Source: Anodontia alba
Lineage: Eukaryota; Mollusca; Bivalvia; Lucinida; Lucinidae
Reading direction: 5' to 3'
Length of the DNA stretch: 64,000 bases
Assembly (NCBI GenBank): GCA_964016985.1
Contig: OZ024831.1
Location: 78,718,263-78,782,262, forward strand
Of this stretch, positions 31,201-57,581 are shown piece by piece. The notes beneath the pieces were generated by a model. That model saw only the letters and a list, made by a program, of their open reading frames with translations. It was not told where the DNA came from and did no database searches. The translations under genes were made by a program, and so were the position numbers. How positions within the stretch are numbered: the first letter of the stretch is position 1; each line of letters begins with the position of its first letter.

Positions 31201-31990
31201 TTCTAGGCAGATTGCATTTACAACCTCTGCAAATGTGCCTATTATTGGTCTGGAAACCTCACATTCTTCCATTAGATCATCAAGTTACGATCAACATTAT
31301 GATCAAATTCCATTTGAAATGGTGGATGAACACCAATCGCTTCGTTCAAGGAGTACCCATTCACCCTCCAGACCCCAAAATATTCCTTTATATGGATGCC
31401 AGTCATTACAGTTGGGGAGCTCATCTGGAACCTATGTCTATCCTTTCATGGTCGCTGGTCGGAAGGCCAATCCCAACTCCATATCAACATGTTGGAAATA
31501 ATGGCCATTCGTTTCGCATTGATAAGAGCCTTGAAATATATTCACCATTCTTGTGTCATGATTTCTACCGACAACATAACAGTGGTCTCATATATCAACA
31601 AGCAAGGAGGAACACATTCTCCCAACCTATGCGTGGAGGTATCAAAGATCCTCCAATGCTGCCTAAAACATCATATTGTCGTCAGGATTCGACATATCCC
31701 AGGCAAATTCAATGTTTTGGCAGACAGGTTATCGAAAATCAACAAAATAATCAAAACGGAATGGGCATTGGATCAATCAATAGCGAATTCAATTTTCCAA
31801 ATGTTCAACTATCCCAATCTGGATCTGTTTGCGACACGTTTCAGTCACAAACTTCCACTTTATGTATCCTCAGTTCTGGACAATCAAGCCTTTGCAATAG
31901 ACGCATTCTCCATGAACTGGAAAAATCTTCATGCTTATGCATTTCCTCCAACAATGCTGATTTCTCCTGTCCTGAACAAGACAAGTCAGT
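31201..31990 (+). pseudogene. DIRS RNase H domain
   Basis: Follows directly from the polymerase. FLYMDASHYSWGAHLEP (~31384) gives the first Asp and MLEIMAIRFAL (~31490) the Glu. ISTDNITVVSYINKQGG (~31561) gives the second Asp. The last comes within ADRLSKI (~31721). A frameshift lies between YMDAS and MLEI (~31430). After it, LDLFATRFSHKLP (~31816) marks the linker usual in DIRS polyproteins, DLFATR being a conserved phrase. Would remove RNA from the RNA-DNA hybrid. Confidence 0.88.
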
Positions 31991-32029
31991 CTCAGTGCAG
32001 AATAATTCATATAGCTTCATATAGCCCCT

Positions 32030-33250
32030 CTTTGGCCGCAACAAGCATGGTTCTCAGAGGTACTACAGCTGCTTGTCTCAGTTCCAGTTCGTCTTCCACT
32101 TTTTCCAAAACTATTAACACAAGCAAAAGGAAAGTTTCAACATCAAAACCTCCCAGCTCACAACCTTCATGCCTGGAAGTTATCAAGCAATCAGTTAGAG
32201 ATTTTCGCAAAACATTGCAGATTTTGTCACCAAATCAAGAAGAACATCAACTCAGAAATTCTATGACGCGAAAAGGACCGTGTATACCCATTGGTGTCTT
32301 AGAAAGGTTAATCCAGTCTCGGCCCCTCTTACTGTTATAGCCGACTTCCTCATTTACCTTTTCTCTGAGAAAAAGTATCAAATTAGCACTATTAAAGGCT
32401 GCAGGTCTGTGATATCTAATACTCTTAAATTTAAGACTGGTAATAGAATCGGATCTAACCCTGTCTTATCAGAATTAATAAGATCTTTTGAGTTGCAATG
32501 CCCTGTACAAAGATATCTTACTCCTAAATGGGATTTATCTTGGGTCTTAATCTGTCTGCAGAAAGCCCCATATGAACCTTTACATAAGGCTTCTAAACTT
32601 CATGTAGCATTAAAAACAGCCTTTCTCCTAGCTCTTGCCACTGCCAAAAGATGTAGCGAGATTCATGCCCTGGCAATGGATTCAAATCATTTAAGATTCA
32701 ATCAATCTGATGGATCAGTATCTCTGATAGTTCAAACTGGCTTTCTGGCTAAGAATCAGCTTCCGTCCATTTGCCCAGATCCTATTGTGATCCCTAATCT
32801 AGCCCATATATGTAAAAGGAAAACACTCAGATAGACTTTTATGCCCAATAAGAGCTTTAAATTCTATTTTAAGATGACTGAACCTTACCGTCAAAATAGA
32901 ACTAGACTATTTCTACCAATTAAAGGCAAATAAGATATTTCTAAATCCTCTGTCTCGAGATGGATTTCTTATACTATTAAACTTGCCTACAGGAAACTCA
33001 CCAGTAAAGACTTTCCCTTCTTAAAGATTAAAGCCCATGAAGTTAGGGCTCTATCTTCCTCTTGGGCCTTTTTCGATAAAGTTCCGCTCAATGAGATTCT
33101 TAAAGCAGCAGTATGGAATCAATCCTCTACTTTTGCTAAGTTCTATCTAAGGGATATGTCTCAGCAACTACAAAATTTACATCATTTGGGCCCAGTTGTT
33201 GTGGCCCAAAAGGTGGTGGGGGGCCAAGTTAACAGTGCCTTGGATGCCTA
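32030..33250 (+). pseudogene. DIRS tyrosine recombinase, frameshifted
   Basis: The N-terminal SAM-like part, with VYTHWCLRKVNP and ISTIKGCRSVISN, spans 32280-32500. The first catalytic Arg is in TAKRCSEIHAL (codon 32649-32651). The HxxR box reads AHEVRAL (His at 33035, Arg at 33044). The nucleophile Tyr is in FAKFYLRDM (codon 33144-33146). These R-H-R-Y residues match the phage-type recombinases that DIRS elements use instead of integrase. A stop or frameshift after KRKTLR (32832) and a stop in IKGK-DISK (~32931) disable it. No methyltransferase domain is seen. Confidence 0.9.
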
Positions 33251-34905: not shown

Positions 34906-35945
34906 GTCCCCTGGCATTAGTAGAAGGGGACTATTAAACTGGGTTTGTTCGTCCAACCATCCATCATTCCTTCAGTCCGTAGACATAGTGAGATGGATAG
35001 TTTGTGGACGCAACTCTTCTGTCATTTTTTAAGCGATCTTTTTGAAACTTTGTAGATATTTTTGTCATGGTCTAAAGATGTGCATCTGATTTTGGTGTTA
35101 TCCTTCTATTATTTTTTTATCAACTTTTTCGACTAAATGTTTTTCAGGTCAGATTAATATTAGAATAGATACCTTGTAGGCGCAACTCCTCCTAGAGTTT
35201 TCCACTGATCATTTTGAAACTATGCATACTCGTTCTGCATGGTCTGTAGGTGTGCATGTGGTTTTAGGGTAATTCTCCCATTACTTTTTATCAGTTTTTT
35301 CTACTTTTTCGACTTTTGTTTTTTTCCAGGTTCAATTACTGTTGGAATAGATACCTTGTGGGCTCAACTCTTCCTAGAGTTTTCCACTGATCATTTTGAA
35401 ACTAAGCATACTCATTCTACATCATCTGTAAATGTGCACGTGTTTTTTGGGTTATCCTCCCTTTATTTTTATGTCCCCGCCTGCCTTTGGCAGAAGTGGG
35501 GCATATAGCGTTTCGCTGTGATGCTACGTCCTTATGTGCATATGTACGACATGTTCTTAACCAGGTTCAAGTTTACCTGCAAGTTTAGGCGCAAATTTAC
35601 CTCCGCGTTTCTCTTGCAGCTAATAACTTTTATACCTTCTGGGCTAGAAAGTTGAAACATTGTATGACTCTTACCTACATCAAGACCTTTTAATGTATGG
35701 TACCATTGCCCCAGGGTCATACCCCTGGGTGGGGCTAGGGGTCAGGGCGGGGGCATCCTTGTACTATGGACACATTTCTAGTTTATCAATTTTTTCTACT
35801 TTTTTTACTTAGTTTTTTCCAGGTTCGATTAGTTTTATAATAGATACCTTGTGGGTGCAACTCCTCTTAGAGTTTTCCACAGATCATTTTGAAACTATGC
35901 ATACTTGTTCTACATAGTCTGAAGATGTGCATGTGGTTTTGGGGT
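34906..35945 (+). mobile_element. GTCCCC-type hairpin tandem element E10
   Basis: The 5' hairpin is GTCCCC ... GGGGAC (34906-34931). The ~180-bp units contain ATACCTTGTAGGCGCAACTC, GTTTTCCACTGATCATTTTG and TTTTTTCTACTTTTTCGAC (starts ~34990, 35165, 35347, 35838). Split by E11. The 3' end is lost at the mariner relic. Confidence 0.6.
35471..35781 (+). mobile_element. Short GTCCCC-type element E11 ending CTAG
   Basis: Starts with a hairpin, ATGTCCCCGCCTGCC / GGCAGAAGTGGGGCAT, and ends CACATTTCTAG followed by T (35776-35781). Its right flank TTTATCAATTTTTTCTAC matches the interrupted core unit of E10. A CTAG-T terminus is Helitron-like. No tandem core, about 310 bp. Confidence 0.6.
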
Positions 35946-35947
35946 TA

Positions 35948-36298
35948 TGAGGGTCCTGCAAAAAGTTTTGTCACTGGGTTCGAATTACTTCAGTGCCACG
36001 TTTTATCAAACATATTTTACAAACCTTCAAAGTATTCCCCCTTTACTGAAACACATTTTTGTAACCTTTCTACCCAGTTGCAAAAAGCAGATAAATAGTC
36101 TTCTTTTGGTATCTGTTGGAGACACCCATAAATAGCGCTGCCAAGAGAACTTATAGACATGTACTTATTTCCAGAAAGCATTTTCTTAAGCCTTGGAAAT
36201 AAAAAGAAGTCACAGGGACTCGGGTCAGGTGAATAAGGTGGATGGTTTAAAACTTTCACCTTATCAGAAGCCAAAAAAGACTTAACAACCTCACACTT
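35948..36298 (-). mobile_element. Mariner remnant (3' third only)
   Basis: Left end begins TGAGGGTCCTGCAAAAAGTT after a TA (35946-35947). On the minus strand an 86-residue frame (36274-36017) carries the third catalytic motif YSPDPSPCDFFLFPRLKK and ends ERLQKCVSVKGEYFEGL. The first two-thirds of the element is missing, replaced at 36299 by F3. Related to the mariner at 3470-4709, not to the CGAGGGCGAG copies. Confidence 0.85.
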
Positions 36299-37390: not shown

Positions 37391-38338
37391 GTAAGTCAAG
37401 ATGTCCTTTTATTTTTTATGACTTTTTATTTTGTTTCCACAGTTCTTTCTACATAACTTGTAAAAATGTTTTTGTTTGGCTTTTGTTATTCTGATGAAAC
37501 CAACCAGCTGTAGCAGACAAAAATATCAGATACAGTTTGAATTTGCATATCTTGCATTTTTTTAGCTCACCTGAGCTATGCTTAGGATGAGCTATAGTGA
37601 TCACTTTTTGTCAGTTGTCCGTGCGTTTGTCCATTTTCAAACGGCTTCTCCTCTGAAGCCGCTGAGCCAATTTTGCTCAAATTTCATATGGAGCCTCCTT
37701 AGGTTGAGGGAATGAAAGATTGCTAAAATGGTCGCCGTCTGTTGACCAAGATGGCCGCCATGCCAACATATGGTAAAAACCTTTAAAAATCTTCTTCTCC
37801 AGAACCGAGGATGCCTTGTGGCTAAATCCTTGCATATATCATCGGGGACGGGAGGTCTACCAAAGTTGCCCTTGGCCAATTTTCTTCAAACTTCATGTGG
37901 AGCCATCTGTTAAAGGGGGATTGAAAATTTGTACAAATGGTTATGGTCAAGATGTCCTCCGTGCCCATATAGCGTAAAAACATTAAAAATCTTCTTCTTC
38001 AGAACCATGAAAGCTTTGTGGCTAAATCTTAGTATATAGCATCAGGGACTCAAGGTCTACCAAGTTTGTTCAAATGGTGATCCTAGGCTGACCTTTGACC
38101 AAGGTCAAATTTTCATTTCTATGCATTTGTATGGGGAAAATATTGAAAAGTCAGTTTCTCAAAATGTATTAAAGACTATTGACTGAAACTTACAATGTAT
38201 GATCAAAGTAGCAAACCCTTTCAGTTACAATCAATATTTTGTCCCTCCGGGTTATCTGCCCATGTGACTGGGATACATACATGTATAAAATCTTGTAATC
38301 TTATAACAGCTTATACTCTGAAACAGCTTGACCAAAGT

Positions 38339-38609
38339 CCGGCCTCGGTGGCGCAGTTGGATGCGCGTCCGACTGGAGACCAGGAGGTCGCGGGTTCGAC
38401 CCCCGCCGAGGTCGGCAACATTCTTTCGTGGAGATTGATCATGAAATATTTTCTACGGTCATTCTCTCCCTTCCGCTGATTCAAGAAGGGCAGTTGTCAG
38501 TTTCTGGCGAAAGAATGTGCACAATACTGGTTAACCGCTTGGAGGACTGACCGCGCTCGACATGACCCCATTGGGTTGACTGGGCCGTAAAACCTCAACA
38601 CAACAACAA
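38339..38609 (+). mobile_element. tRNA-derived SINE with small 3' deletion
   Basis: Best-preserved tRNA head in the window: A-box-like TGGCGCAGTTGG, B-box-like GGTTCGACCCC. About 35 bp is missing after GCTTGGAGGACT. A perfect 14-bp duplication AGCTTGACCAAAGT flanks it (38325-38338, 38610-38623). Confidence 0.93.
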
Positions 38610-39179
38610 AGCTTGACCAAAGTTTACCACATTTCAAATTGGGATTTCTAACAAAGGGGTATTATCAATTTGTTCAAACAGTTTTGAATCATTAAACTAG
38701 ATGGCTGCCATATATGGTAAAAACACTTAAAAATCTTCTTCTGCAGAACCGAGAAAGCCTCAAGGCTTGGTATAAAGCATTGGGGACTTAAGGTCTACCA
38801 TGTTTGTTCAAACAATGACCCTAGGTTGACATTTGACCTTCTAATGGCAAGGTCAAATTTACATCCCTATGCATTAGTATGGGGAAAATATTGAAAATTC
38901 AGTTTCTTAAAATGTATTAAAGACTAATGGCTGAAACTTACAGTGTATATTCAAAGTAACAAACCCTTTTAGTTACAATCAAGTTATTGTCCCCCTGGGC
39001 TATATACCTGTACAAAATCTGTTATCTGTAAATGTCTTCTCTGAAACAGCTGGCCCAATGTTCACCAGATTTCACATTAGGCCTTCTGTTAAAGGGGAAT
39101 TATCAGTTTGTTTGAATGACTCCATTTCATCAAACAAGATGGCTGCCATGCCCATATATGGTAAAAAAACACTTATTTT

Positions 39180-42100
39180 TAGCTCACCTGAGCACGAAGT
39201 GCTCATGGTGAGCTATTGTGGTCAGTCAATGTCCGTCGTCCAGCGTCAAGAATTGCTTTAAAAGCCTACTCCTCCTACACCCCTGGGCCATTTGACTTGA
39301 GACTTAGTAGGAATCATCGGGGTGACTTGTAGATCAAAAATAGCTAAAATCGTTCCGATCGGAAATCCAAGATGGCCGCCATGGCCGCCATCTTGAAAAT
39401 CTATTTTTCGCTTCTTCTCCTGAACCGAAAGGCCAATTGACTCCAAACTTGCTAGGAAGCATCGGGGTGACTTGTAGATCAAAAATAGCTAAAATCATGC
39501 CGATCGGAAACCTAAGATGGCTGCCTTGGCCGCCATCTTGAAAATCTATTTTTCGCTTCTTCTCCTGAACCGAAAGGCCAATTTACTCCAAACTTGCTAG
39601 GAAGCATCAGGGTGACTTGTAGATCAAAAATAGTTAAAATCATGCCGATCGGAAATCCAAGATGGCCGCATTGGCAGCCATCTTGAAAATCTATTTTTCG
39701 CTTCTTCTAACCCCAAATGCCAATTGACTAGAAACTTGGTAGGAAGTATCGGGGTGACTTATAGGTCAAAAGTCACTAAAATCATTCCAGTCAGAAATCC
39801 AAGATGGCCGCCATGGCCGCCATCTTGAAAATCTATTTTTCACTTCTTCTCCTGAGCTGAAAGGCCAATTGACTCCAAACTTGGTAGGAAGCATCAGGGT
39901 GACTTGTAGAATAAAAATAGCTAAAACCATGCTGATCGGAAATCCAAGATGGCCGCCCTGGTGGCCATCTTGAAAATCTTTTTTTCGCTTCTTCTCCTAA
40001 ACCCAAAAGCCAATTGACTTGAAACTTGGTAGGAAGCATCGGGGTGACTTATAGATTAAAAATGGCTAAAATCGTTCCGATTGGAAATCCAAGATGTCCG
40101 CCATGGCGGCCATTTTGAAAATCTATTTTTCACTTCTTCTCCTGAACCGAAAGGCTTATTGGCTTTTAACAGGTAGGAAGCATCAGGGTGACCTGTAGAT
40201 CAAAAATAGATAAAATTATCCCTATCAGAAATCCAAGATGGCTGCCATGACAGCCATCTTTAAAATCTATTTTTCGCTTCTTCTCCTGAACTGAAAGGCC
40301 ATTTGACTCGAAACTTGGTAGGAAGCATTCGGGTGACTTGTAGATCTAAAATAGCTTAAATTGTTTGGATCGGAAATCCAAGATGGCTGTCATGGTGGCC
40401 ATCTTGAAACTCTTTTTTTCACTTATTTTCCTGAACCAAAGGGCCAGTTGATTTGAAAATTGGTAGGAAGCATCGGGATGACTTGTTGATATAAAAATAG
40501 CTAAAATCATTCCAATCGGAAATCCAAGATGGCGGCCATCTTGAAAATCTATTTTTCTTTTCTTCTTCTGAACTGAAAGGCCAATTGACTCGAAACTTGG
40601 TAGGAAGCTTCGTGGTGACTTGTAGATAAAAAATAGCTCAAATTGTTGCGATAGGAAATCTCAAATTGCGGCTATGGTGGCCATCTTGAAAATCTGTTTT
40701 GAACTTTTTCTCCTGAACCGAAAGGCCAATTGACTCCAAACTTGCTAGGAAGCATCGGGGTGACTTGTAGATCAAAAATAGCTAAAATCATGCCGATCGG
40801 AAACCTAAGATGGCTGCCTTGGCCGCCATCTTGAAAATCTATTTTTCGCTTCTTCTCCTGAACCGAAAGGCCAATTGACTCCAAACTTGCTAGGAAGCAT
40901 CAGGGTGACTTGTAGATCAAAAATAGTTAAAATCATGCCGATCGGAAATCCAAGATGGCCGCATTGGCAGCCATCTTGAAAATCTATTTTTCCCTTCTTC
41001 TAACCCCAAATGCCAATTGACTAGAAACTTGGTAGGAAGCATCGGGGTGACTTATAGGTCAAAAGTCACTAAAATCATTCCAGTCAGAAATCCAAAATGG
41101 CAGCCATGGCCGCCATCTTGAAAATCTATTTTTCACTTCTTCTCTTGAGCTGAAAGGCCAATTGACTCCAAACTTGGTAGGAAGCATCAGGGTGACTTGT
41201 AGAATAAAAATAGCTAAAACCATGCTGATCGGAAATCCAAGATGGCCGCCCTGGTGGCCATCTTGAAAATCTTTTTTTCGCTTCTTCTCCTAAACCCAAA
41301 AGCCAATTGACTTGAAACTTGGTAGGAAGCATCGGGGTGACTTATAGATTAAAAATGGCTAAAATCGTTCTGATTGGAAATCCAAGATGTCCGCCATGGC
41401 GGCCATTTTGAAAATCTATTTTTCACTTCTTCTCCTGAACCGAAAGGCTTATTGGCTTTTAACAGGTAGGAAGCATCAGGGTGACCTGTAGATCAAAAAT
41501 AGATAAAATTATCCCTATCAGAAATCCAAGATGGCTGCCATGACAGCCATCTTTAAAATCTATTTTTCGCTTCTTCTCCTGAACTGAAAGGCCATTTGAC
41601 TCGAAACTTGGTAGGAAGCATCAGGGTGACTTGTAGATCAAAAATAGTTAAAATCATGCCGATCGGAAATCCAAGATGGCCGCATTGGCAGCCATCTTGA
41701 AAATCTATTTTTCGCTTCTTCTAACCCCAAATGCCAATTGACTAGAAACTTGGTAGGAAGCATCGGGGTGACTTATAGGTCAAAAGTCACTAAAATCATT
41801 CCAGTCAGAAAACCAAGATGGCCGCCATGGTCGCCATCTTGAAAATCTATTTTTCACTTCTTCTCCTGAGCTGAAAGGCCAATTGACTCCAAACTTGGTA
41901 GGAAGCATCAGGGTGACTTGTAGAATAAAAATAGCTAAAACCATGCTGATCGGAAATCCAAGATGGCCGCCCTGGTGGCCATCTTGAAAATCTTTTTTTC
42001 GCTTCTTCTCCTAAACCCAAAAGCCAATTGACTTGAAACTTGGTAGGAAGCATCGGGGTGACTTATAGATTAAAAATGGCTAAAATCGTTCCGATTGGAA

Positions 42101-43171
42101 ATCCAAGATGTCCGCCATGGCGGCCATTTTGAAAATCTATTTTTCACTTCTTCTCCTGAACCGAAAGGCTTATTGGCTTTTAACAGGTAGGAAGCATCAG
42201 GGTGACCTGTAGATCAAAAATAGATAAAATTATCCCTATCAGAAATCCAAGATGGCTGCCATGACAGCCATCTTTAAAATCTATTTTTCGCTTCTTCTCC
42301 TGAACTGAAAGGCCATTTGACTCGAAACTTGGTAGGAAGCATTCGGGTGACTTGTAGATCTAAAATAGCTTAAATTGTTTGGATCGGAAATCCAAGATGG
42401 CTGTCATGGTGGCCATCTTGAAACTCTTTTTTTCACTTATTTTCCTGAACCAAAGGGCCAGTTGATTTGAAAATTGGTAGGAAGCATCGGGATGACTTGT
42501 TGATATAAAAATAGCTAAAATCATTCCAATCGGAAATCCAAGATGGCGGCCATCTTGAAAATCTATTTTTCTTTTCTTCTTCTGAACTGAAAGGCCAATT
42601 GACTCGAAACTTGGTAGGAAGCTTCGGGGTGACTTGTAGATAAAAAATAGCTCAAATTGTTGCAATAGGAAATCTCAAATTGCGGCTATGGTGGCCATCT
42701 TGAAAATCTGTTTTGAACTTTTTCTCCTGAACCGAAAGGGCAATTGACCTAAAGTTCATTGGAAGTATCAAGGTGACTTGTAGATCAACAGTAGCTAAAA
42801 TCATTCTGATTGGAAATCCAAGATGGCTACCATCTTGTTTATGTTTATTATATTTCATTGCTTATTATATTTCATTGCCACTGTGCTGTTTACATGTATA
42901 AAATCATGATTCTTCAGAAACCACTTAGGTAATTGAAACCAAATTTCACATTGATCCTACTGTTGAAATGTGATTGAGAGTTTGTTCAAATGATCACGCT
43001 CCATTGACTGTCATACCATATATAATATTCTTCTTCAAAATTAAGAACTGCTCAAAGGATGATCTTTTCATTAGTTGCGATGACAGGATTGGAAAAATGT
43101 TACATAACATCTGCATATCTGCACTCGCTATGCCACTTAGGTGAGCAACCCGTGGCCCGTGGGCTTCTTGT
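39180..43171 (+). mobile_element. Hairpin-ended tandem element E5, ~144-bp core
   Basis: The 5' hairpin is TAGCTCACCTGAGCACGAAG / TGCTCATGGTGAGCTA, then (GTCCGTCGT). The core has about 24 units of ~144 bp holding CTTGGTAGGAAGCATCGGGG, GTAGATCAAAAATAGCTAAA and a palindrome AAGATGGCCGCCATGG / CGGCCATCTTG. The unique 3' tail (42840-43171) includes GATGACAGGATTGGAAAAAT. It ends GGCCCGTGGGCTTCTTGT. Nested in E4. The many 60-100-residue minus frames are translations of the unit. Confidence 0.85.
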
Positions 43172-44321
43172 TTTTTTCTCCAGAAACAAGAAAACTTCAA
43201 GGATGCCTATTGACATAAAGTATTGGGGACTCAAAATCTACCAATTTTGTTCAAATGATGATCCTAGGATGACTGACCTTTCCATGGCAAGGTCAAATTT
43301 GCATACCCATATTCTGATACGGGGAAAATGTTGAAAAATCATTTTCTGAAAATGTACTAAAGACTAAAGGCTGAAATTTGCAAGGTAAAGTAATAAAACT
43401 TATTAGTGACAATCAAATTTTTGTCCCTTTACAGTTATACGCCCTTGCCCTTCAGTTATATACATGTTTAAAATTATGTAATCTTTAAACATCTTTCTGG
43501 AATTACTTGACCAATTTTCAGATTTCATATGGAGTCTTCTGTCGAAGGGATATTGACAGTTTGTTCAAATGGTTCACACCTTTAAACAAGATGGCCCCGA
43601 TGCCCATATAATGTAAACAAAAAAAAAAAAAAAAAAAAAAAAAAACACTTAAAAATCTTCTTCTCCAGAACCAAGAAAACTTTGAGACTGAACCTTGATG
43701 TATATCACATTGGGGACTCAAGTTCTACCATGTTTGTTCAGATGATCCTAGGATGACCTTTGACCTTTTTATGACAAGGTCAGATTTGCGTCCCCATACA
43801 AAATGTTGAAAAATCATTTTCTAAAAATGTATTAAAGACTAATGGCTGAAACTTTCAGTGTATGATACAAGTAGTAAAAATAGTAAAACTTATATTTTCA
43901 ATCAAAATTTTATCCCCTACAGTATCTGCCCTTGCCTCAGGGCTTTGTGTGTGTATAAAATTGTATAAATCTTTAAATTTCTTCTTCTCTGAAACCACTT
44001 TAAACCAGATTTCACATGTCACCTTCTGTTGAAGTAGTACTAACAATTTGTTCAAATGGTTTTTCACTATTGAACAAGATGGCTGCCATGCCCATATATG
44101 GTAAAAAAACTTTAAAATCTTCTCCAGAACAAAGAATGCTTTGAGGCTAATTCTTGGTATATAGCATTGCGGGTGCAAGGTCTACCAACTTTGTTCAAAT
44201 GTAGATCCTAGGATGACCTTTGACCTTTCTATGGCACTGTCAAATTTCTGTCCTAGTTGCTGTGGCAATGTTACATGACATCTGCATGTTTTACTCAGGC
44301 TGAGCAAATGGGCCTCTTCTT

Positions 44322-45763
44322 TAGAAACTATTCCAGCCTGTGATCTGAAAATTGTAGATGCAGGTAGCTAAATAAATAAATGAAACTGCATGAGTATTCA
44401 AGGTCAAGGTCATTTCTTGAAAATTAAAACTTGTTTTTCTCAGAAATCACTGGGCCATTTGTAACCAGATTTCATAGGAAAGCTTTTAGGAACAAGGAAA
44501 TGAAAATGAATACATATGTGTTTGGTCACATGACAAATATGGCTGCCATGCCCGTATATGGTAAAATCATTTACAGTTTCAAACATCTTCTCCTATGAAA
44601 CCACTGGGCCGATCGAAGTCAAATTTCATGTGGAGCAGCCATGTGATAGGGGAACCAAAATTTTGTCCGCCAAGTCCAGGTCACATGACCAAGATGACCG
44701 CCACTCCCATATAGTGTAAAACCCCTTCAAAAATCTTGTTCTCTTGGACCAGTAGGCCGATTGTAATGAAACTTGTTATGTAGCATTTGGGACTCAAGCC
44801 AATCATAGTTTGTTCAAATGATGACACCTGGATGACCTTGACTTATTTTAGGCCCAGGTCTGTTCGCATAGACTTTTGTATGGGAAACAGTCAAAACCTT
44901 GTATTTTTCAGAAACAATTAAGACTGTGGTTTGAAAATTGGTAGATGCAGTGCCCTAAATGTGTGTAAATGAAACTACATGAGTATTCAAGGTCAAGGTC
45001 ATTCCTTGACCTTGGCCCAAGGTCAGTCAGATATGAAAATTAAAACTTGTTTTTCTCAGAAACTACTGGGCCATTTGTAACCAAATTTCATATGAAAATA
45101 TTAAGCAACAAGAAAATGAAAATTAATACGAGTTTGGTCATATGACTAATCTGGCTGCCATGCCCATATAAGGCCAAAACCTTTAAAAATCTTTTTCTAT
45201 GAACTAGTGGGCTGATTATCATGAAACTTGGTATGTAGCATTGGGGACTCAAGCCAATCATAGTTTATTCAAATGATGGCCTCTGGATAGTCTTGACCTA
45301 TTTTAGGCCAAGGTTAACTTTGGTCCCATAGGCTTTTGTATAGGAAAAACTGTGTATTTTCAGAAACTACATGAGTATTCAAGGTCAAGGTCATTCCTTA
45401 ACCTTGGCCCAAAGTCATTCAGATATGAAAATTAAAACTTGTTTTACTCAAAAATCATTGGACCATTTGTAACTTTGTAACCAAATTTCATAGGAACGCT
45501 TTTAGGAACAAGGAAATGAAAATTGATAAATATGAGTTTGGTCACTTGACAAATATGGCTGCCATATGGTAAAATCATTTAAAAAACTTCTTCTCCGGAA
45601 CCAATGGACTAATTGCCTTGAAACTTGGTATCTAGTATTGGGGTCTCAGGGCCAAACATAGTTTATTCATATGATGACTGGCTTGACCTTGACCAAATTT
45701 ACATCAAGGTCAAATTTGGTCACATATGCTTTTGCATGGTAAAAAGTGGAAATTGTTAATTTT
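44322..45763 (+). repeat. TCAAGGTCA-rich repeat H, left part
   Basis: Irregular units of ~0.4-0.6 kb sharing GAGTATTCAAGGTCAAGGTC, TTAAAACTTGTTTTTCTCAG and GAAACTTGGTATGTAGCAT. No 5' hairpin end seen, so this may be a separate element whose start is lost, or an extension of E4. Interrupted by E6. Confidence 0.65.
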
Positions 45764-48428
45764 TAGCTCACCTGAGCATAAGCTCAGGGTGAGCTATTGT
45801 CATCACCCTATGTCCGTCGTCCGTCGTCGTCTGTCATCAACAATTAGTTTGTTAACACTCAAGAGGTCACAGTTTTGACCCAATCTTGATGAAACTTGGT
45901 CAGAATGTTTGCCTCTATGAAATCTAGGTCAAGTTCGATACTGGGTTACTTGGGGTCAAAAACAAGGTCACCAGGTCAAATCAAAGGAAAAACTTGTTAA
46001 CACTCTACAGGTCATAATTTTGACCCAATCTTGATGAAACTTGCTCAAAATGTTTACCTCTATTAAATCTAGGTCAAGTTCGAAACTGGCTCACTTGGGG
46101 TCAAAAACTAGGTCACCAGGCCAGATCAGCAGAAAACCTTGTTAACACTCTAGCGGTCACATTTTTGAAGCAATCATCATGAATCTTGCTCAATATATTT
46201 GTCTTGATGATTTCTAGGTCAAGTTTGAAACTGGGTCACCTGGGGTCAAAAACTAGGTCACCTGGCCAGATCAGCAGAAAACCTTTTTAACACTCTAGCA
46301 GTCACATTTTTGAAGCAATCATCATGAATCTTGCTCAATATCTTTGTCCTGATGATTTCTAGGTCAAGTTCGAAACTGGGTCACTTGGGGTCAAAAACTA
46401 GGTCACCGGGCCAGACCAGCAGAAAACCTTGTTAACACTCTAGCGGTCACATTTTTGAAGCAATCATCATGAATCTTGCTCATTATGTTTGTCTTGATGA
46501 ATTCTAGGTCAAGTTCGAAACTGGGTCACCTGGGGTCAAAAACTAGTTCACCTGGCCAGATCAGCAGAAAACCTTGTTAACACTCTAGCAGTCACATTTT
46601 TGAAGCAATCATCATGAATCTTGCTCAATATGTTTGTCTTGATGATTTCTAGGTCAAGTTTGAAACTGGGTCACTTGGGTCAAAAACTAGGTCACTGGGC
46701 CAGATCAGCAGAAAACCTTGTTAACACTCTAGCGGTCACATTTTTGAAGCAATCATCATGAATCTTGCTCAATATATTTGTCTTGATGATTTCTAGGTCA
46801 AATCTGAAACTGGGTCACCTGGGGTCAAAAACTAGGTCACCTGACCAGATCAGCAGAAAACCTTGTTAACACTCTAGCAGTCACATTTTTGAAGCAATCA
46901 TCATGAATCTTGCTCAATATGTTTGTCTTGATGATTTCTAGGTCAAGTTCGAAACTGGGTCACTTGGGGTCAAAAACTAGGTCACCGGGCCAGACCAGCA
47001 GAAAACCTTGTTAACACTCTAGCGGTCACATTTTTGAAGCAATCATCATGAATCTTGCTCATTATGTTTGTCTTGATGAATTCTAGGTCAAGTTCGAAAC
47101 TGGGTCACCTGGGGTCAAAAACTAGGTCACCTGGCCAGATCAGCAGAAAACCTTGTTAACACTCTAGCAGTCACATTTTTGAAGCAATCATCATGAATCT
47201 TGCTCAATATATTTGTCTTGATGATTTCTAGGTCAAATCTGAAACTGGGTCACCTGGGGTCAAAAACTAGGTCACCTAACCAGATCAGCAGAAAACCTTG
47301 TTAACACTCTAGCAGTCACATTTTTGAAGCAATCATCATGAATCTTGCTCAATATGTTTGTCTTGATGATTTCTAGGTCAAGTTCGAAACTGGGTCACTT
47401 GGGGTCAAAAACTAGGTCACTGGGCCAGATCAGTAGAAAACCTTGTTAACACTCTAGCGGTCACATTTTTTAAGCAATCATCATGAATCTTGCTCAATAT
47501 GTTTGTCTTGATGATTTCTAGGTCAAGTTTGAAACTGGGTCACTTGGGGTCAAAAACTAGGTCACCTGGCCAGATCAGCAGAAAACCTTTTTAACACTCT
47601 AGCAGTCACATTTTTGAAGCAATCATCATGAATCTTGCTCAAAATGTTTGTCTTGATGATTTATAGGTCGAGGTCGAAACTGGGTCACTTGGAGTCAAAA
47701 ACTAGGTCACCGGGCCAAATCAGCAGAAAACCTTGTTAACACTCTAGCGGTCACATTTTTGAAGCAATAATCATGAATCTTGCTCAAAATGTTTGTCTTG
47801 ATGATTTCTAGGTCAGGTTCGAAACTGGGTCACGTGGTATCAAAAACTAGGTCACCAGGCCAAACCTGCAGAAAACCTTGTTAACACTCTAGCGGTCACA
47901 TTTTTGAAGCAATTATCATGAATCTTGCTCAAAATGTTTGTCTTGATGAGTTCTAGGATATGTTTGAAACTGGGTCACTTGGGGTCAAAAACTAGGTCAC
48001 CGGGCCAAATCAGCAGAAAACCTTGTTAACACTCTAGCGGTCACATTTTTGAAACAATCATCATGAATCTGGCTCAAAATGTTTGTCTTGATGATTTCTA
48101 GGTCAAGTTCGAAACTGGAACACCTGGGGTCAAAAACTAGGTCACCTGGCCAAATAAGCGTAAAATCTTGTTATCACTCTAGCGGTCACATTTTTCAAGC
48201 AATCATCATGAATCTTGCACAAAATGTTTGTCTTGATGAGTTCTAGGTCAAGTTCGAAACTGGATCGCTTGGTATCAAAAACTAGGTCACCGGGCCAAAT
48301 CAGCAGAAAACTTTGTTATAATCATTTTGAACTTTGATCAGAATGTTTGCCTTGATCAGTTCTAGATCAGGCTCTCAAAGTGCTATGTTGCTCAGGTGAG
48401 CGTTACAGGGCCATCATGGCCCTCTTTA
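45764..48428 (+). mobile_element. Hairpin-ended tandem element E6, ~145-bp core
   Basis: The 5' hairpin is TAGCTCACCTGAGC / GCTCAGGGTGAGCTA, then (GTCCGTCGTC). About 17 units of ~145 bp contain TTAACACTCTAGCGGTCACA, GAAGCAATCATCATGAATCT and GAAACTGGGTCACTTGGGGT. The 3' end is GCTCAGGTGAGC, the hairpin AGGGCCATCATGGCCCT, then CTTTAT. No ORF of note. Nested in H. Confidence 0.85.
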
Positions 48429-48739
48429 TTGGAAATTATTGTTGCCTGTGAATTTCAATTTTGTATTTGCAACAGCTAAATGAGTAAATAAAGCTACATG
48501 AGTAGCAAAGGTCAAGGTCACTCCTTGACCTTTGATCTTAGCACAGAATTTAACATAATTAGCAAACAAACTCATGATACAGACATGGGTTCATAATCCT
48601 AAGGAGGGACATAAAGCCCCTTAACATGAGCCTGGCTTCCAATAAGCACATTAATGGTCCATGGGACAGTCTTCTATAATGATCTTCAAATTCATTTCAA
48701 AACACTCAAATGAGCAGTTTAGTACTATTGGTCCGCGTG
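48429..48739 (+). repeat. Repeat H, right part, and short spacer
   Basis: Resumes with GGAAATTATTGTTGCCTGTG and GCAAAGGTCAAGGTCACTCC, matching the H unit at 44328. From ~48560 it is unique with no recognised feature. Confidence 0.55.
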
Positions 48740-50568
48740 TTAGCTCACCTGAGCACAAAGTGCTCATGGTGAGCTATTGTGGTCAGTCAATGTCCGTCGT
48801 CCGTCGTGCGGCGTCAACAATTGCTTTAAAAGCCTACTCCTCCTACACCCCTGGGCCAATTGACTTGATACTTGGTAGGAAGCATCGGGGTGACTTGTAG
48901 ATCAAAAAAAACAAAAATCGTTTGGATCGGAAATCCAAGATGGCCGCCATGGCCGCCATTTTGAAAATCTATTTTTCGCTTCTTCTCCTGAACCGAAAGG
49001 CCAATTGACTCCAAACTTGCTAGGAACCATCAGGGTGACTTGTAGATCAAAAATAGCTAAAATCTTGCCGATCGGAAATCCAAGATGGCCGCCATCTTGA
49101 AAATCTATTTTTCGCTTCTTCTCCTGAACCGAAAAGCCATTTGACTCCAAACTTGCTAAGAAACATCAGGGTGACTTGTAGATCAAAAATAGCTAAAATC
49201 GTGCCGATCGGAAATCCAAGATGGCCGCCATGGCCGCCATCTTGAAAATCTATTTTTCGCTTCTTCTCCTGAACCGAAAGGCCAATTGACTCTAAACTTG
49301 CTAGGAAGCATCAGGGTGACTTGTAGATCAAAAGTAGCTAAAATCGTGCCGATCGGAAATCCAAGATGGCCGCCATGGCCATCTTGAAAATCTATTTTTT
49401 GCTCCTTCTCCTGAACCGAAAGGCCAATTGACTCCAAACTTGCTAGGAAGCATCAGGATGACTTGTAGATCAAAAATAGCTAAAATCGTGCCGATGGGAA
49501 ATCCAAGATGGCCACCATGGCTGCCATCTTGAAAATCTATTTTTCGCTTCTACTCCTAAACTTAAAAGCCTATTTGACTCCAAACTTGGTAGGAGGCATT
49601 TGGGTGACTTAGAGATCAAAAATAGCTAAAATCGTGCCTATCGGAAATCCAAGATGGCCGCCATGGCGGCCATCTTGAAAATCTATTTTTCTCTTCTTCT
49701 TCTGAACCGAAAGGCCAGTTGACTATAAACTTGGTAGGAAGCATCGGGGTGACTTGTAGATCAAAAATAGCTAAAATCATGCCGATCGTAAAACCAGGAT
49801 GGGTGCCATGGCAGCCATCTTGAAAATCTATTTTTCGCTTCTTCTCCTGAACCGAAAGGCCAGTTGACTCGAAACTTGGTAGGAAGCATTTGGGTGACTT
49901 GTAGATCAAAAATAGCTAAAATCATGCCGATCGGAAATCCAAGATGGCCGCCATGGCTGCTATCTTGAAAATCTATTTTTCGCTTCTTCTCCTAAACCCA
50001 AAAGTCACTTGACTCAAAACTTAGTAGGAAGCATCAGGGTGACTTGGTAGATCAAATATAGCTAAAATCGTTCTGATCAGAAATCCCAGATGGCCACCAT
50101 GGCCGCCATCTTGAAAATCTATATTTAGCTTCTTCTGCACCGAAAGGCCAATTGACTCCAAACTTCGTAGGAGACATTGGGGTGACTTGTAGATCAAAAA
50201 TAGCTAAAATTGTGCCAATCGGATATCCAAGATGGCCGCATCTTGCAAATCTATTTTTCACCTCTTCTCCTGAACTGAAAGGCCAGTTGACTCGAAACTT
50301 GGTAGGAAGCATTGGGGTGACTTGTAGATCAAAAATAGCTAAAATTGTGCCGATCGTAAATCCAAGCTGGCTGCCAGTTAGAGTTTGTTCAAATGATCAC
50401 GCTCAATTGACTGGCATGCAATATATCTTCTTCAAAATAAAGAACTGCTTAAATGATGATCTTTTCATTAGTTGCGATGACAGGATTGGAAAAATGTTGC
50501 ATAACATCTGCATATCTGCAGTGGCTATGTCACTCAGGTGAGCGACCCGTGGCCCGTGGGCCTCTTGT
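48740..50568 (+). mobile_element. Hairpin-ended tandem element E7, ~144-bp core
   Basis: Same family as E5. 5' TAGCTCACCTGAGCAC with pairing arm, about 11 core units, the unique tail with GATGACAGGATTGGAAAAAT, and 3' TCACTCAGGTGAGCGACC, GGCCCGTGGGCC, TCTTGT. It is the cleanest complete copy of this family in the window, uninterrupted from end to end. Confidence 0.9.
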
Positions 50569-50897
50569 TTATCTGTCTGGTAGACTGAGCTGGAGTGGTG
50601 TAGTTCCAACAAAATCATGTGAGTCCAGCATTAGGAGTCAGGTCAGCCTGCTCATCCAGGCAGACTGATTTGAGTCTTTGTGGGAAGTGGGGTGCTCTGG
50701 CTTAGTGGTTTAAAGTTGTAAGTCAGTAGAATTAGTTTGTCAGTTGGTGTAAAAACATGACGGCAGGAAAATTGATGACGTTGTGACGTCACGTCATGTT
50801 GTTTGGTAACTATCAATAAGATTGATCAGTAGAAAGTAAAAGCATTTTAAGAAATCTAGTCTTTGCCGTACTTTTAATATGTATTTAAGTACTTTAT
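50569..50897. other. Unique intron sequence
   Basis: About 330 bp between two tandem elements. It contains a short GACGTTGTGACGTCACGTCA (50776-50795), a CRE-like palindrome, but no gene. Confidence 0.5.
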
Positions 50898-51442
50898 TAG
50901 CTCACCTGAGCACGAAATGCTCATGGTGAGCTATTGTGGTCAGTCAATATCCGTCGTCCATCATGCGTCGTCCCTTGTCTGCCGTGCATCGTCAGCAACT
51001 GCTTTAAAAGCCTACTCCTCCTACACCCCTGGGCCAGTTGACTAGAAACTTGGTAGGAAGCATCAGGGTGACTTGTAGATCAAAAGTAGCTAAAATCATT
51101 AAAATCGGAATTCCAAGATGGCCACCATCTTGAAAATCTATTTTTCGCTTCTTCTCCTGAATAGAAAGGCCAATTGACTAGAAACTTGATAGGAAGCATC
51201 AGGGTGACTTGTAGATAAAAATAGCTGAAATCGTTCCAATCGGAAATCCAAGATGGTCACCATGGTGGCCATCTTGAAAGTCTATTTTTCGCTTCTCCTA
51301 AACCGAAAGGCCAGTTGACTAGAAACTTGGTAGGAAGCATTGGGGTGATTTGTAGATCTGTTTTTCGCTTCTTCTCCTGAACCAAAAGGCCAATTGACTT
51401 GAAACTCGGTACGAGGGCGAGTCAATAAAAAACCAGCCTAAC

Positions 51443-52784
51443 TTATTTCTGGGTGAGATCAATCTCTTCTTTTTCGATGTACTTGCCCTCTAGAATGATG
51501 CACTTGGACCAACGGTGTTCCAGTGCCATCAGCCCAGAACTGAAGAAGCCAGGGTCCTTGTCTCTGACACACTCCTCAACTGCCGCCATGACTTCTTCGT
51601 TGGACCAGACATAAGGTCCACGGATATCCTTTTTCAAGTTTGGGAATAGGAAATAGTCACTATGAGCTAAGTCCGGAGAATAGGCGGGGTGCGGTATTAG
51701 CTCGTACCCATTCTGCTCAACAGCATCCATTGCAATTTTGCATTTGCGGACTCGCATTGTCCTGTTGGAGCAGAATCCCTTTGGAGAGTTTACCTCAGCT
51801 TTTTTCACGGATCACAATTCTCAGTTAGTCGAGCAAATTTGCATAATACGCACCTTTTATTGTACTTTTCTTTGCTAGAAAGTCCAACATGATAACGCCT
51901 TGTGCATCCCAAAATACAGTTGCCATCACCTTGCCAGCAGAGGGTTGCGTTTTGAACTTTTTGGCCTCGGAGACCCCGGCCCTACACTCTGGCGACTTTT
52001 AGCTTTATTCTCTGGCTCATAATAATGGACCCAGGTCTCATCTACAGTCACCAGACGTGAAAGGAAATCATCTTCCTTTGACCTAAACCGCTTCAACAAT
52101 GCACTGTATACTGATGCTCTGGTCGCCATTTGCTCATTGCTAAGGGATTTTGGGACCCAACGGGCTGTTAGCTTGTGCATACCCAAGCGATCATGTAAAG
52201 TTGTTGAAACGCTACCATGTGAAATGTGTAATGCATTAGCTATTTCATCCACCTTAATTCGCCTTTCAGAGTACACCAGATCCCGTACTTTGTTACACAT
52301 TTCTTCATCGGTGGCATCTGATGGGCTTCAACAATGCGCTGTATACTGATGCTCTGGTCGCCATTTGCTCATTGCTAAGGGATTTTGGGACCCAACGGGC
52401 TGTTAGCTTGTGCATACCCAAGCGATCATGTAAAGTTGTTGAAACGCTACCATGTGAAATGTGTAATGCATTAGCTATTTCATCCACCTTAATTCGCCTT
52501 TCAGAGTACACCAGATCCCGTACTTTGTTACACATTTCTTCATCGGTGGCATCTGATGGGCGTCCAGACCTGGTTTCATCTTCTAAAGACGTTCTACTGT
52601 GTTTGAATTCCCCAACCCAGAATTTAATTTGTGCATACGATGGTGCAGAAGACCCATAAACATTGGTCAACTCGTAATGTATTTCCTGACCTGTTTTCCC
52701 TTTCAAATACAAGTACCGAATCACAGCACGGTACTCAACTTTTGACGAAAAGCTTACTTTTGCATCGCTAGCCATGTTATACAT
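51443..52784 (-). pseudogene. Mariner (DD34D) transposase, copy 2, inactivated
   Basis: Begins MASDAKVSFSSKVEYRAVIR and is open through both HTH regions to WVPKSLSNEQ. The 235-bp duplication (not a multiple of three) then shifts the frame. The second copy of the HTH region continues to VTVDETW (first Asp, ~52030), after which a one-base loss near PRPK (~51958) shifts it again. The C-terminal part has YSPDLAHSDY (third Asp, with Pro-to-His beside it) and ends KEEIDLTQK at 51443. Unlike copy 1, its KRFRSKEDDF and DPGFFSSGL stretches are intact. Confidence 0.92.
52092..52561 (-). repeat. 235-bp tandem duplication inside mariner copy 2
   Basis: 52092-52326 and 52327-52561 differ at a single base near the start (GCACTG versus GCGCTG). 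It covers the second HTH region. Absent from copy 1. Confidence 0.95.
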
Positions 52785-53452
52785 TATCTTATGAGTGAAT
52801 GACACGATAAGGGTGCAATTTTGCTCTCAGGCCTAAAACATGTATTGAAACAAGGCATGAAAATCGTGGGTGTCTCGGTCAATTGGAAATGGGATAGGCT
52901 GGTTACTTATTGACTTGCCCTCGTAGGAAGCATCGGGGTGAATTGTAGAGCAAAAATAGCTAAAATTGTTCTGATCGGAAATCCAAGATGGCGCCATGTC
53001 CGCTATCTTGAAAATCTCATTTTTGCTTCTTCTCCTGAACCAAAAAGCCAATTGACTTGAAACTTGATAGGAAGTATCGGGATGACTTGTAGATCAAAAG
53101 TAGGTAAAATCGTTCTGATCAGAAATCCAATATGGTGGCCAGCTTGAAAAGCTAATTTTCGCTTATTCTCCAGAACCAAAAGACCATTTGACTTGAAACT
53201 TGGTAGAAAGCATCAGGGTAACTTGCAGATCTAAAATAGCTAAATTTGTTTCGATGGGAAATCCAAGATGGCAGCCATGGTGACCACCTTGAAAATCTAT
53301 TTGTCGCTTCTTCTCTTATAACAGAAAGGCCAATTGACTCGAAACTTGGTAGGAAGCATTGGGGTGACTTGCAGATCTAAAACAGCTAAAATTGTTTCGA
53401 TGGGAAATCCAAGATGGCCATCATGGTAGCCATCTTGAAAATCATTTTTTTT

Positions 53453-54755
53453 GTCCCCTGCCTTTTCGAAGAAAAGCGGAGGGACACTGTTTTTGGCTTT
53501 CCGTGGTGCGTGGCACGTGGCACGTGGTGCGTGGTTCCGAATTTTTAGTAGGTACCTTGTCCCCTTAACTCCTCCCACAGTTTTTGTCCGATCCTTTTGA
53601 AACTTTACAGGTGCTTTAAGGATGGTCTGAAGATATGCATGTGGTTTTTTCAGAATCCTGAAATTATTTTTTATCACTTTTTTCACATTTTGAACTTAGA
53701 CACTTTTTGAGTTCTAATATTACAGAAGTCTATAGGGAGTAGGTACCTTGTCCCCTTAACTCCTCCCATAGTTTTTGGCCAATCCTTTTGAAACTTTACA
53801 TGGGCTTTTAGGATGGCTTGAAGATATGCATGTGGATTTTCAGAATCCTGAAATAATTTTTTATCACTTTCTCCGCATTTTTAACTTAGACATTTTTTGA
53901 GTTCTAATATTACAGAAGTGTATAGGGAGCAGGTACCTTGTCCCCTTAATTCCTCCCACAGTTTTTGGCCGATCCTTTTGAAACTTTACATGGGCTTTTA
54001 GGATGGCCTGAAGATATGCATATGGTTTTTTCGGAATCCTGAAATAATTTTTTATTACTTTTTCCGCATTTTTAACTTAGACATTTTTTGAGTTCTAATA
54101 CTACAGAAGCATATAGGGTGTAGGTACCTTGTCCCCGTAACTCCTACCACAGTTTTAAGCCAATCCTTTTGAAACTTTACAGGTGCTTTTAGGATGGTCT
54201 GAAGATATGCATGTGGTTTTTTCAGAATCCTGAAATTATTTTTTATTACTTTTTACACATTTTGAACTTAGACATTTTTTCAGTTCTAATATTACAGGAG
54301 TCTATAGGGAGCAGGTACCTTGTCCCCTTAACTCCCCCACAGTTTTTGGCCGATCCTTTTGAAACTTTTCATGGGCTTTTAGGATGGCCTTAAGATATGC
54401 ATGTGGTTTTTTCAGAATCCTGAAATAATTTTTTTTCCCTTTTTCCACATTTTTAACTTAGACATTTTTTGAGTTCTAATACTACAGAAGCGTATAGGGA
54501 GTAGGTATCTTGTCCCCTTAACTCCTACCACAGTTTTAAGCCGATCTTTTTGAAACTTTACACGTGCTTTAAGGATGGTCTGAAGATATGCATGTGGTTT
54601 TTTCAGAATCCTGAAATTATTTTTTATCACTGGTTTCCTGCTTCAATACTTAGGTCGGTGATACAGGACCAATGGTCCTCTGGTTAACTTACCCATTTTT
54701 AACACCTCAAATAAAAATAAGGCGGGGGACATAAATTCCCCATGGAATTTGCTTG
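53453..54755 (+). mobile_element. GTCCCC-type hairpin tandem element E9
   Basis: The 5' hairpin is GTCCCCTGCC ... GCGGAGGGAC, followed by a (CGTGGCACGTGG)-like stretch. Six units of ~190 bp start AGGTACCTTGTCCCCTTAAC (about 53551, 53740, 53931, 54123, 54315, 54505). The 3' end is GGCGGGGGACATAAATTCCC, then CATGGAATTTGCTTGT. Inserted in a T-run of an E8 unit; that unit resumes TTGCTTCTTCACCTGAAC. Confidence 0.8.
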
Positions 54756-55508
54756 TTTGCTTCTTCACCTGAACAGACAGGCCAGTAGACTCGAAACTTG
54801 TTAGGAAGCATTGGGGTGACTTGTAGCTCTAAAATAGCTTTAAATTGTTTGGATCGGAAATCCAAGATGGTGGCCATCTTGAAAATCTATTTTTCGCTTC
54901 TTCTCCTGAACTGAAGGGCCCATTGACTCGAAACTTGGTAGGAAGCATCGGGGTGGCTTGTACATCAAAAATAGCTCAATCATTCCGATAGGAAATCCCA
55001 AATGGCTGCCATGGCAGCTATCTTGAAAGTCTATTTTGAACTTTTTCTCCTGAACCAAAAAGGCAACTGACTCAAAGTTCATTGGAAGTATCGAGGTGAC
55101 TTGTAGATTAACAAAGCTAAAATCATTCTGATTGGAAATCCAAGATGGCCGCCATCTTGTTTATGTTTATTATATTTCCCTGCCACTGTGCTGTTTACAT
55201 GTACAAAATCACGATTCTTCAGAAATCACTTAGCCAAGTTCCACCAAATTTCCACCAAATTTCAAATTGATCCTACTGTTGAAATGTGATTGAGAGTTTG
55301 TTCAAATGATCATGCTCCATTGACTGTCATGCCCATATATTCTTCAAAATTAAGAACTGCTTAAATGATGATCTTTTCATTAGTTGCGATGACAGGATTG
55401 GAAAAATGTTGCATAACATCTGCATATCTGCAGTGGCTATGTCACACAGGTGAGCGACACGTGGCCCATGGGCCTCTTGTTTCAAATGTAGATATCAGAT
55501 TGAATTGG

Positions 55509-55548
55509 TCTTCTTGAGAAAGGCCACTTGATGGCCAAAACGTCATGT
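55509..55548 (+). ncRNA. Degenerate hammerhead-ribozyme-like motif (tentative)
   Basis: CTTCTTGAGAAAGGCC, loop ACTTGAT, GGCC, then AAAACGTC. The GGCC/GGCC stem followed by AAACGTC resembles the stem II and GAAAC core of retroelement-linked hammerhead ribozymes (CTGATGA-stem-GAAAC). The CTGATGA box is altered to CTTGAGA, so it should not cleave. It may mark an old Penelope-type or similar remnant. Confidence 0.25.
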
Positions 55549-55688
55549 TCATTGGCAAATTAAGTGATTTTTAAAAACTCTATTTGGATCCCTTATTCAT
55601 TCACCAGTGTCATGAAGATAATATGTTGGAAAGGTATCATTCAAGCCTGGAATGGGAAAAAAAAACTTCTTTATATTTTTGTTTACAG

Positions 55689-56272: not shown

Positions 56273-57459
56273 TAGCTCACCTGAGGCAAAGGCTCGAGGG
56301 GAGCTTTTGTGATCACTCACCATTGATGGTCATCTGTCTGTCAACAATTTCTTTAAACAACATCTCCTCCTAAACCACTGTGCCAATTTACATCATAATC
56401 ACAGGAATGATCCTTGGGGGATACTGATTGAAAATTGTTCAAAGATTTGGAATCCATGCAGGATTCTGGTTGCCATAGCAACCCAAAGAAAAAAAACAAC
56501 AAAACATTAAACATCTTCTTGTCATAAACCACTGGAGCGATTTCAATATATTTTGGCAGAAATGTTCCTTTGGTGACCCTCTACAAAGATTGTTCAAGCC
56601 ATCATTATTCGTCATAAAACATGGTCTCCAGAGAGCAGGGCTTATTTTCCCCGATATAATTATATATGAAACTTTAAGAAATCTTCTTGTCAGAAACCAC
56701 TGTACTGATTTCAATATAATTTGGCAGAAATGTTCCTTTGGTGACCTTCTACATTGATTATTCAAGCAATCATGATTGGTCAAAAAACATTGCCACCAGT
56801 GGGCAGAGTTTAATTTCCCTATATGTCTATATAGAAAACTTTAAAAATCCTCTTGTCAGAAACCATTGAACGGATGTCAGTAAGATTTAGCAGAAATGTT
56901 TCTTTGGTGCCCTCTACAGATTGTTCAGGTCATCATGATTGTTCTAAAAACATGGCCGCTAGGGGTGAGGCTTATTTTCTCTGTATATCTATGTCGAAAA
57001 CTTTAAAAATTTTCTGGTCAGAAAATACAGGACCGATTTCAATATACTACAGCAGAAATATTCTTTTTGTAACCCTCTATCAAGATTGTTCAGGACATCA
57101 TGATTTCATCAAAAACATGGCTGCCAGGGGTGGGAGGGGGGAGGGGGGGGGGGTGCTGAGGGTGAGGGGTGTGTGGTTTCTCTATACATGTAAAATGTAT
57201 ATAGAAAATTCTAAAAATTTTCTTGTAAAACACCGGACTAATTTCAATATATCAGAAATATTGGATCATCATGTTTCTCTTGATCATAAAATTTATACAA
57301 AAATCTTAAAGCACTGAACTTGGGTTAGTATGCAAATCTTCTTGTCTCTATTGGTATACCTGTGATTTTAAGGTATTTTGTCCAGTTCTCAGATACTAAG
57401 AGCCTCTCATTAACCTTTACAATCTTCTCACCAGTTTAGCAGATGATATGCTATATCTA
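56273..57459 (+). mobile_element. Hairpin-ended tandem element E12, 3' end missing
   Basis: Starts TAGCTCACCTGAGGCAAAGG with imperfect pairing arm. The core has ~165-bp units with GATTTCAATATATTTTGGCA, AGAAATGTTCCTTTGGTGAC and ATCTTCTTGTCAGAAACCAC. A G-run lies at 57133-57152. No 3' hairpin; it stops where F4 begins. Confidence 0.7.
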
Positions 57460-57581
57460 TACCCCCGGCATACGAAGTATGAAGCGGTTTATAGTTTTCC
57501 TCTTTTCCAAAACAATGTTTGTGTGTGTGTGTGTGTTTGAGTGTGTGTGAGTGTGTGTCTATCTGCTTGTAAATTTTTTTT
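57460..57581 (+). mobile_element. Helitron-like element F4, 5' end only
   Basis: ATACCCCCGGCATACGAAGT with pairing arm, then a (GT)n stretch. Cut off by E13 at TTTTTTT. Confidence 0.7.

Follow-up and report, generated by a model that had tools for sequence, protein, structure and literature searches.

Among described systems, the closest to the elements reported here are the Cg_HINE elements of the oyster Crassostrea gigas (PMC7492417; this and the other accession-cited papers are represented by parts of their text). Like the present elements, compared with them by description, Cg_HINE elements have a 5' subTIR with an inverted repeat, a GTCY-type microsatellite, central repeats of 140-180 bp in fixed orientation, a 3' subTIR plus palindrome, TT targets without target duplication, and insertions in non-coding gene parts. 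In Cg_HINE group 2, related flanks occur on unrelated repeats, and a filler model (captured satellites) has been proposed for some oyster HINEs. One difference is that the shared segments described in the cited parts of PMC7492417 concern group 1 repeats and CL4; they are not reported for elements whose ends are unrelated. Similarly, eight C. gigas Helitrons share 5' and 3' boxes (Boxes 4 and 5) yet carry different satellites, while a 156-bp Box 3 between microsatellite and repeats is given in those passages for one pair only, Helitron-N2 and N2C (PMC8268682). The pearl family and the BIV160/Cg170 satellites, both from bivalves, also have tandem cores of ~160 bp in a modular element; the two conserved motifs of BIV160/Cg170 are reported, in the text cited, within one satellite family only (PMC5139131). 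The HINE/DINE-1 elements of mites and Drosophila, for which autonomous partners were identified, share with the present elements the subTIRs, the 3' palindrome and T-rich targets without target modification, with microsatellites or tandem repeats in some copies (PMC4067079). The end and target features found here are those given for HINEs in the cited parts of Thomas et al. 2014 and Vojvoda Zeljko et al. 2020.

The window analysed is a 64,000-bp stretch of the Anodontia alba genome. In this 64-kb window, 13 5' ends of AGCTCACCTGAGC type (e1-e13) and eight 3' ends of the same type were found, both ends being present in seven elements (e1-e7); the elements were numbered e1-e14 and their limits drawn by eye. 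In order, the anatomy runs from a 5' hairpin that directly follows a T run, through a GTCY-like microsatellite and the tandem core, to a 3' block, a palindrome and a CTTG-like end before T. The joint reading of the evidence, which we hold to be probable, is that these are non-autonomous Helentron-type (HINE) rolling-circle elements whose cores are mostly variants of one modular unit of ~131-199 bp that keeps an oriented box of ~52 bp. The elements with this end type (lineage 1), and one array associated with them, are as follows.

6907-8771, plus strand: e1, family B element within a family I array, both ends present
23091-24611, plus strand: e2, family E with a B-like first unit, switching near 247 bp, both ends present
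37564-44319, plus strand: e3, family B, split by a tRNA-Ser-like SINE and by e4, 3' end CTTC/TTT
39181-43170, plus strand: e4, family C, 145-bp units, nested in e3, both ends present
44320-45764, resuming after e5 at ~48427-48640, plus strand: family F array, about three boxes per unit
45765-48426, plus strand: e5, family D, 145-bp units, lineage 1 ends, core unrelated by the whole-unit test
48742-50567, plus strand: e6, family C, the most regular ends
50899-55479, plus strand: e7, family C, broken by a mariner-like element (~51411-52925) and by g2 (see below)
56274-57440 (end approximate), plus strand: e8, family J, 3' end not found
57583-59080 (end approximate), plus strand: e9, family C', diverged hairpin, 3' end not found
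59200-59747 (end approximate), minus strand: e10, family J, left flank is e11 sequence
59748-60285, minus strand: e11, family C, cut by e10, left flank is e12 sequence
60286-61972, minus strand: e12, family B, box spacing 198/146
62293-63200 (end approximate), plus strand: e13, family D', 3' end not found
63542-64000, minus strand: e14, 3' end only, the element running off the window

In e3, the tRNA part of the inserted SINE occupies 38340-38416, and B units were found on either side of e4. The minus-strand region 59200-61972 appears to be nested on three levels, with e10 in e11 and e11 in e12, each inserted element beginning after TTTTT in the core of the next; no right-hand remainder of e11 or e12 was seen there. 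Ends belonging to the family F array itself were looked for and not found. A family F unit directly follows the 3' end of e3 (44316-44325), at about the same T-run point where e5 entered F (45764/48427), and the matching left part of F was not found before e3.

The 5' end has the form AGCTCACC.TGAGCAC-loop-GTGCTCA.GGTGAGCT. With at most two mismatches, TAGCTCACCTGAGC had 19 matches in the window against 0.20 expected, and it was exact in 8 of the 13 listed 5' ends; GTCCGTCGTCCGTCG-like or GTCCGTCG-type microsatellite stretches had 13 matches where 0.10 were expected. When the 13 5' hairpins were folded as single-stranded DNA, 12 gave z < -2 against shuffles (range -1.7 in e12 to -7.4 in e7). 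The inner stem varies by family yet still pairs (GAGCAC/GTGCTC, GAGCC/GGCTC, GGAGC/GCTCC, as read by eye, without a covariation count). Subterminal inverted repeats were found as 5' GCTCACCTGAG and 3' CTCAGGTGAGC, the 3' block being complementary to the 5' arm. The 3' end is more variable: the 11-mer CTCAGGTGAGC is exact in three of eight 3' ends (e5, e6, e14) and varied in five, the palindrome GGCCCRTGGGCC is exact in three (e6, e7, e14), replaced by a different one, GGGCCATCATGGCCC, in e5 and degenerate in the remaining four, e3 having lost part of it, and CTTG before T is exact in five. Two 3' ends were folded: e5 gave z -2.1, and e6, at z +0.2, has a palindrome no stabler than shuffles. 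The 5' hairpin, microsatellite and tandem core architecture recognised in a first-pass annotation of this locus is real, in 13 5' ends; the 3' terminus of block, palindrome and CTTG, for which that annotation already noted variants, is present in the best copies, with variants in the others.

At least two T residues precede all 13 5' ends, and after the eight 3' ends there is at least one T in all and at least two in six. In none of the seven complete elements is the flanking sequence duplicated past the T run. The empty site of e1, seen in uninterrupted units of the surrounding family I array, is a T run; for e4, in family B, the site is likewise a T run, and an uninterrupted B unit aligns with the two joined flanks through the junction. 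The same comparison did not succeed for e5. These sites bear on whether the elements might be cut-and-paste MITEs with terminal inverted repeats, an identity suggested by the complementarity of the two ends and by the history of the related pearl elements, which were first named MITEs (PMC7492417). The 3'-side inverted repeat lies ~35 bp inside the end, as measured in e6, and the targets are T runs; on the target sites, with no fixed-length duplication in the seven complete elements, the MITE identity was ruled out, and we give it hardly any credence. The identity as Helentron-derived HINE/pearl elements proposed in the first-pass annotation fared better: the HINE anatomy is present, and neither observation named there as a refutation was made, the ends being conserved across copies and target duplications absent from all seven complete elements. 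The first-pass interpretation as a whole is partly supported, its assignment of the elements to HINEs/Helentrons having passed the anatomical tests run.

For such elements, knowledge of the family suggests that a Rep/helicase from an autonomous element elsewhere would nick at the T/5' end, that replication would then run through the core and stop at the 3' block and palindrome, and that the copy would be joined into another T run. No Rep/helicase was found among the 17 of 23 window ORFs of at least 120 aa that were scanned, and searches for further copies in a viral collection and a prokaryote genome collection returned 0 matches in each.

The single replication system that had been proposed proved too narrow, since the window also contains elements (lineages 2-5) whose ends differ from those of lineage 1 but follow its left-end layout.

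1154-2795, plus strand: a1 and a2, lineage 2, TATACCCCCGGCATACGAAGTATG hairpin, family A 169-bp units, with a further copy, a3, at 36302
18857-21080, plus strand: h1, lineage 3, ATACCCCGCCAC hairpin, family H 149-151-bp units, broken by a mariner-like element
53447-54755, plus strand: g2, lineage 4, GTCCCCTG hairpin, 191-bp units of family G, box present, 3' block identified by eye
34906-35950, plus strand: g1, lineage 4, family G', holding a one-unit lineage 5 piece, x1, from ~35472

The lineage 5 (L5) end type is TATGTCCCCGCC, with a single unit and no array. Three of the lineage 2-5 hairpin types were folded (z -4.6, -6.0 and -3.0), and visual inspection gave a 3' block plus palindrome for the A and G types. 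A CCCC arm common to lineages 2-5 suggests that these may be related to each other, lineage 1 being different. Another lineage 2-type 5' end (ACCCCCGGCATACGAAGTATG) was seen at 57468-57520, with no family A array behind it.

Core families were compared as whole monomers, with 60 dinucleotide shuffles each. Families B, C, C', E, F and J formed one connected set, with linking pairs at z 4.9 to 21 (C-C' 21, B-F 14, E-F 13, B-C 10, C-F 10, E-J 9.5, B-E 7.5, B-J 4.9), and D paired with D' only (z 10.5). Reverse-strand controls were sometimes high too (C-C' z 6.3, C'-H 5.0, B-C' 4.9), in part because family C units contain an inverted repeat. The unit of ~340 bp contains two boxes (198+146 in e12), so that the 344-bp unit is a dimer, and the '~480' unit, cut here as 593 bp, contains three. 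Alongside divergence, exchange of cores does occur: e2 is 85-87% identical to e1 over 120-240 bp and then runs into a different array (50, 77, 55 and 60% identity per 40-bp bin past the switch), and e5 has the same ends on a core related only via the box. Earlier, the cores had been taken as unrelated or distantly related, interchangeable and perhaps swapped in a way not yet described. Six of the families are detectably homologous and D alone stands apart; to call the cores interchangeable overstates the case, because most of them are related or retain one box; and C. gigas already provides published examples of related ends on unrelated cores, so that core swapping is not new, as well as of two-array elements, T targets and insertions in non-coding gene parts (PMC7492417, PMC8268682, in the parts cited).

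The cores repeatedly contain a box of ~52 bp, with TTCTTGAAACTTNGTA at its centre, that points the same way as the element and occurs also in elements with unrelated ends; the first box begins 73-149 bp from the 5' end. An example is the following.

48834-48885, plus strand: 52-bp box in the first unit of e6

Box spacing tracks unit length in regular arrays, with e1, e3 and F less regular. The underlying motif search, with one occurrence per unit, was run on seven units (A, C, D, G, H, I and L5), one per group, out of 13 core units or consensuses. The shared 24-mer scored 161.6 against 135.6 +- 2.5 in 25 shuffles (largest 141.5), the score fell to 136.3 when A, G and I were reversed, and the motif score was reached in 0 of 60 draws of real non-element window sequence (largest 148.1). 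At 32 and 40 bp the motif remains significant, with a different H site. The motif survives omission of A, D, G, H or I (0/60 each), and significance is lost without C (10/60) or without L5 (7/60). The loss in two of seven leave-one-out runs favours the explanation offered by the filler model, by which the cores would be independently captured, unrelated satellites and the box a product of chance or alignment choice, as does the absence of whole-unit similarity between D and the other cores.

Held-out tests of the box consisted of a lineage 1 model and of models with single families omitted; e8, doubtfully placed by the motif run, was left out of the box models and of the identity and first-unit comparisons, its array being scanned. 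The lineage 1 model, extended to 52 bp and built from 12 first units of lineage 1 alone, gave 117 plus- and 13 minus-strand matches across the window: 127 lay on the element strand and 1 against it, 1 fell in an array whose direction is unknown, and the last lay outside. What looks like a degraded J-type fragment at 12560-12760 held the only match to this model outside the elements then listed. Held-out lineage 4 elements scored 12.9 and 16.6, against a null maximum of 8.1 from 20 shuffled windows, and held-out lineage 5 scored 3.6 (p ~0.001). Lineages 2 and 3 were not significant under this model, which had no match in the A and H arrays; the best place in these lineages was the expected one in three of four elements. 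With each family omitted in turn, the best place was as expected in 18 of 19 first units, the sole exception being e9, with its best match in its own second unit, and models without D, A or H had their best match at the expected base in 6 of 6 of those families' first units. An all-families model, trained on one unit from each of 19 elements, so that matches in those arrays are not independent, gave 154 box matches (151 concordant with the element strand, 2 discordant, 1 of unknown direction) and 0 outside the listed elements (35,009 of 64,000 bases), against 1.0 per strand in shuffles. Family I, without a known 5' end, was entered as a consensus, and its arrays gave one match in this model.

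Judged by these scores, presence of the box is strongly indicated for B, C, C', E, F, J, G and L5, moderately for I (p 0.002), and weakly for D (p 0.011, 0.017), A (0.016, 0.033, 0.18) and H (0.046); the D' consensus had no box match. The weak p-values for A, D and H are again what independent capture of satellites would lead one to expect. Detection of held-out lineages 4 and 5 by the lineage 1 model, the hits at the expected base without D, A or H, and a box orientation that follows the element all speak against such capture, which we consider improbable as an account of these cores. A modular unit retaining an oriented box could, if the box is indeed shared, allow satellites described as unrelated to be joined in one superfamily.

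Across lineages, the ten central columns were 70% identical and the other box columns 35-42%, against a background of 26%, figures flattered by an anchor chosen for similarity. Within arrays, the box was not more conserved than other stretches, ranking among circular windows 118/145 (C), 39/145 (C'), 40/145 (D), 30/165 (E), 105/191 (G) and 80/169 (A), ranks that leave constraint within arrays unsupported. As a specially conserved copy the first unit was rejected, being unbeaten in just 5 of 13 elements, and a hairpin was likewise rejected, six folded boxes giving z -0.7 to +2.1 and no stable fold. Since the box is not extra-conserved within arrays and the first unit is not consistently better, constraint is not demonstrated. 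The data fit nearly equally well constraint acting on source elements only and a relic of common descent. As a relic, the box would be the slowest part, without present function, of one ancestral tandem HINE whose ends and spacers diverged fast, a quite possible history, though one that we hold somewhat less likely than not; whole-unit homology across six core families, the lack of excess conservation of the box inside arrays and the lack of a fold agree with it. Between lineages, however, the remainder of the unit has diverged past detection while the box is ~35-70% identical (the anchor being similarity-chosen), and box identity amid an undetectable remainder is not predicted by neutral descent alone.

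A stronger functional version, which seems to us unlikely, would have the tandem cores be iteron-like arrays of one conserved, orientation-locked site (the ~50-bp box centred on TTCTTGAAACTTNGTA) and not neutral captured satellites, a putative binding site multiplied beside the 5' hairpin origin and recognised by a protein common to Helentron lineages with different ends. Specificity would then lie in the ends, while recruitment or replication would be increased by the box. As regards the preferred reading, HINE elements with a mostly modular core, the core unit would keep the ~52-bp box in fixed orientation while its remainder drifts, gets replaced, or is rebuilt into dimers or longer units. 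With less confidence, we infer that the box may be kept since source elements need it, perhaps as a protein site near the replication start. Were it kept through otherwise complete core turnover, the arrays may be a working part of the element, not cargo. This bears on why HINEs so often carry tandem cores of 140-190 bp and on the origin of dispersed bivalve satellites. In the literature covered (titles, listed abstracts and main-text passages of open-licence papers), no box common to the cores of HINE families with unrelated ends was found, and three strings from the box had no match in the text of the papers covered.

When joined by eye, two exons give a match to the AAR2 N-terminal domain (Pfam PF20981, E 3e-10), and e3-e7 sit in the intron between them (~37391-55688); this intron of the AAR2 homologue is ~18 kb long and consists mostly of nested elements. 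An Rfam scan at gathering scores gave a single tRNA, at 38342, and ARAGORN gave three tRNA-Ser-like heads, at 4959, 38340 and 56119 (minus strand), with a common downstream body, that is, a tRNA-derived SINE. Two related mariner-like elements are present, at 51411-52925 and 19291-20575, the former with an internal 235-bp tandem duplication (99%) in the transposase region. Retroelement ORFs with reverse transcriptase (RVT_1) and RNase H-like (RVT_3) domains occur at 30574-32834.
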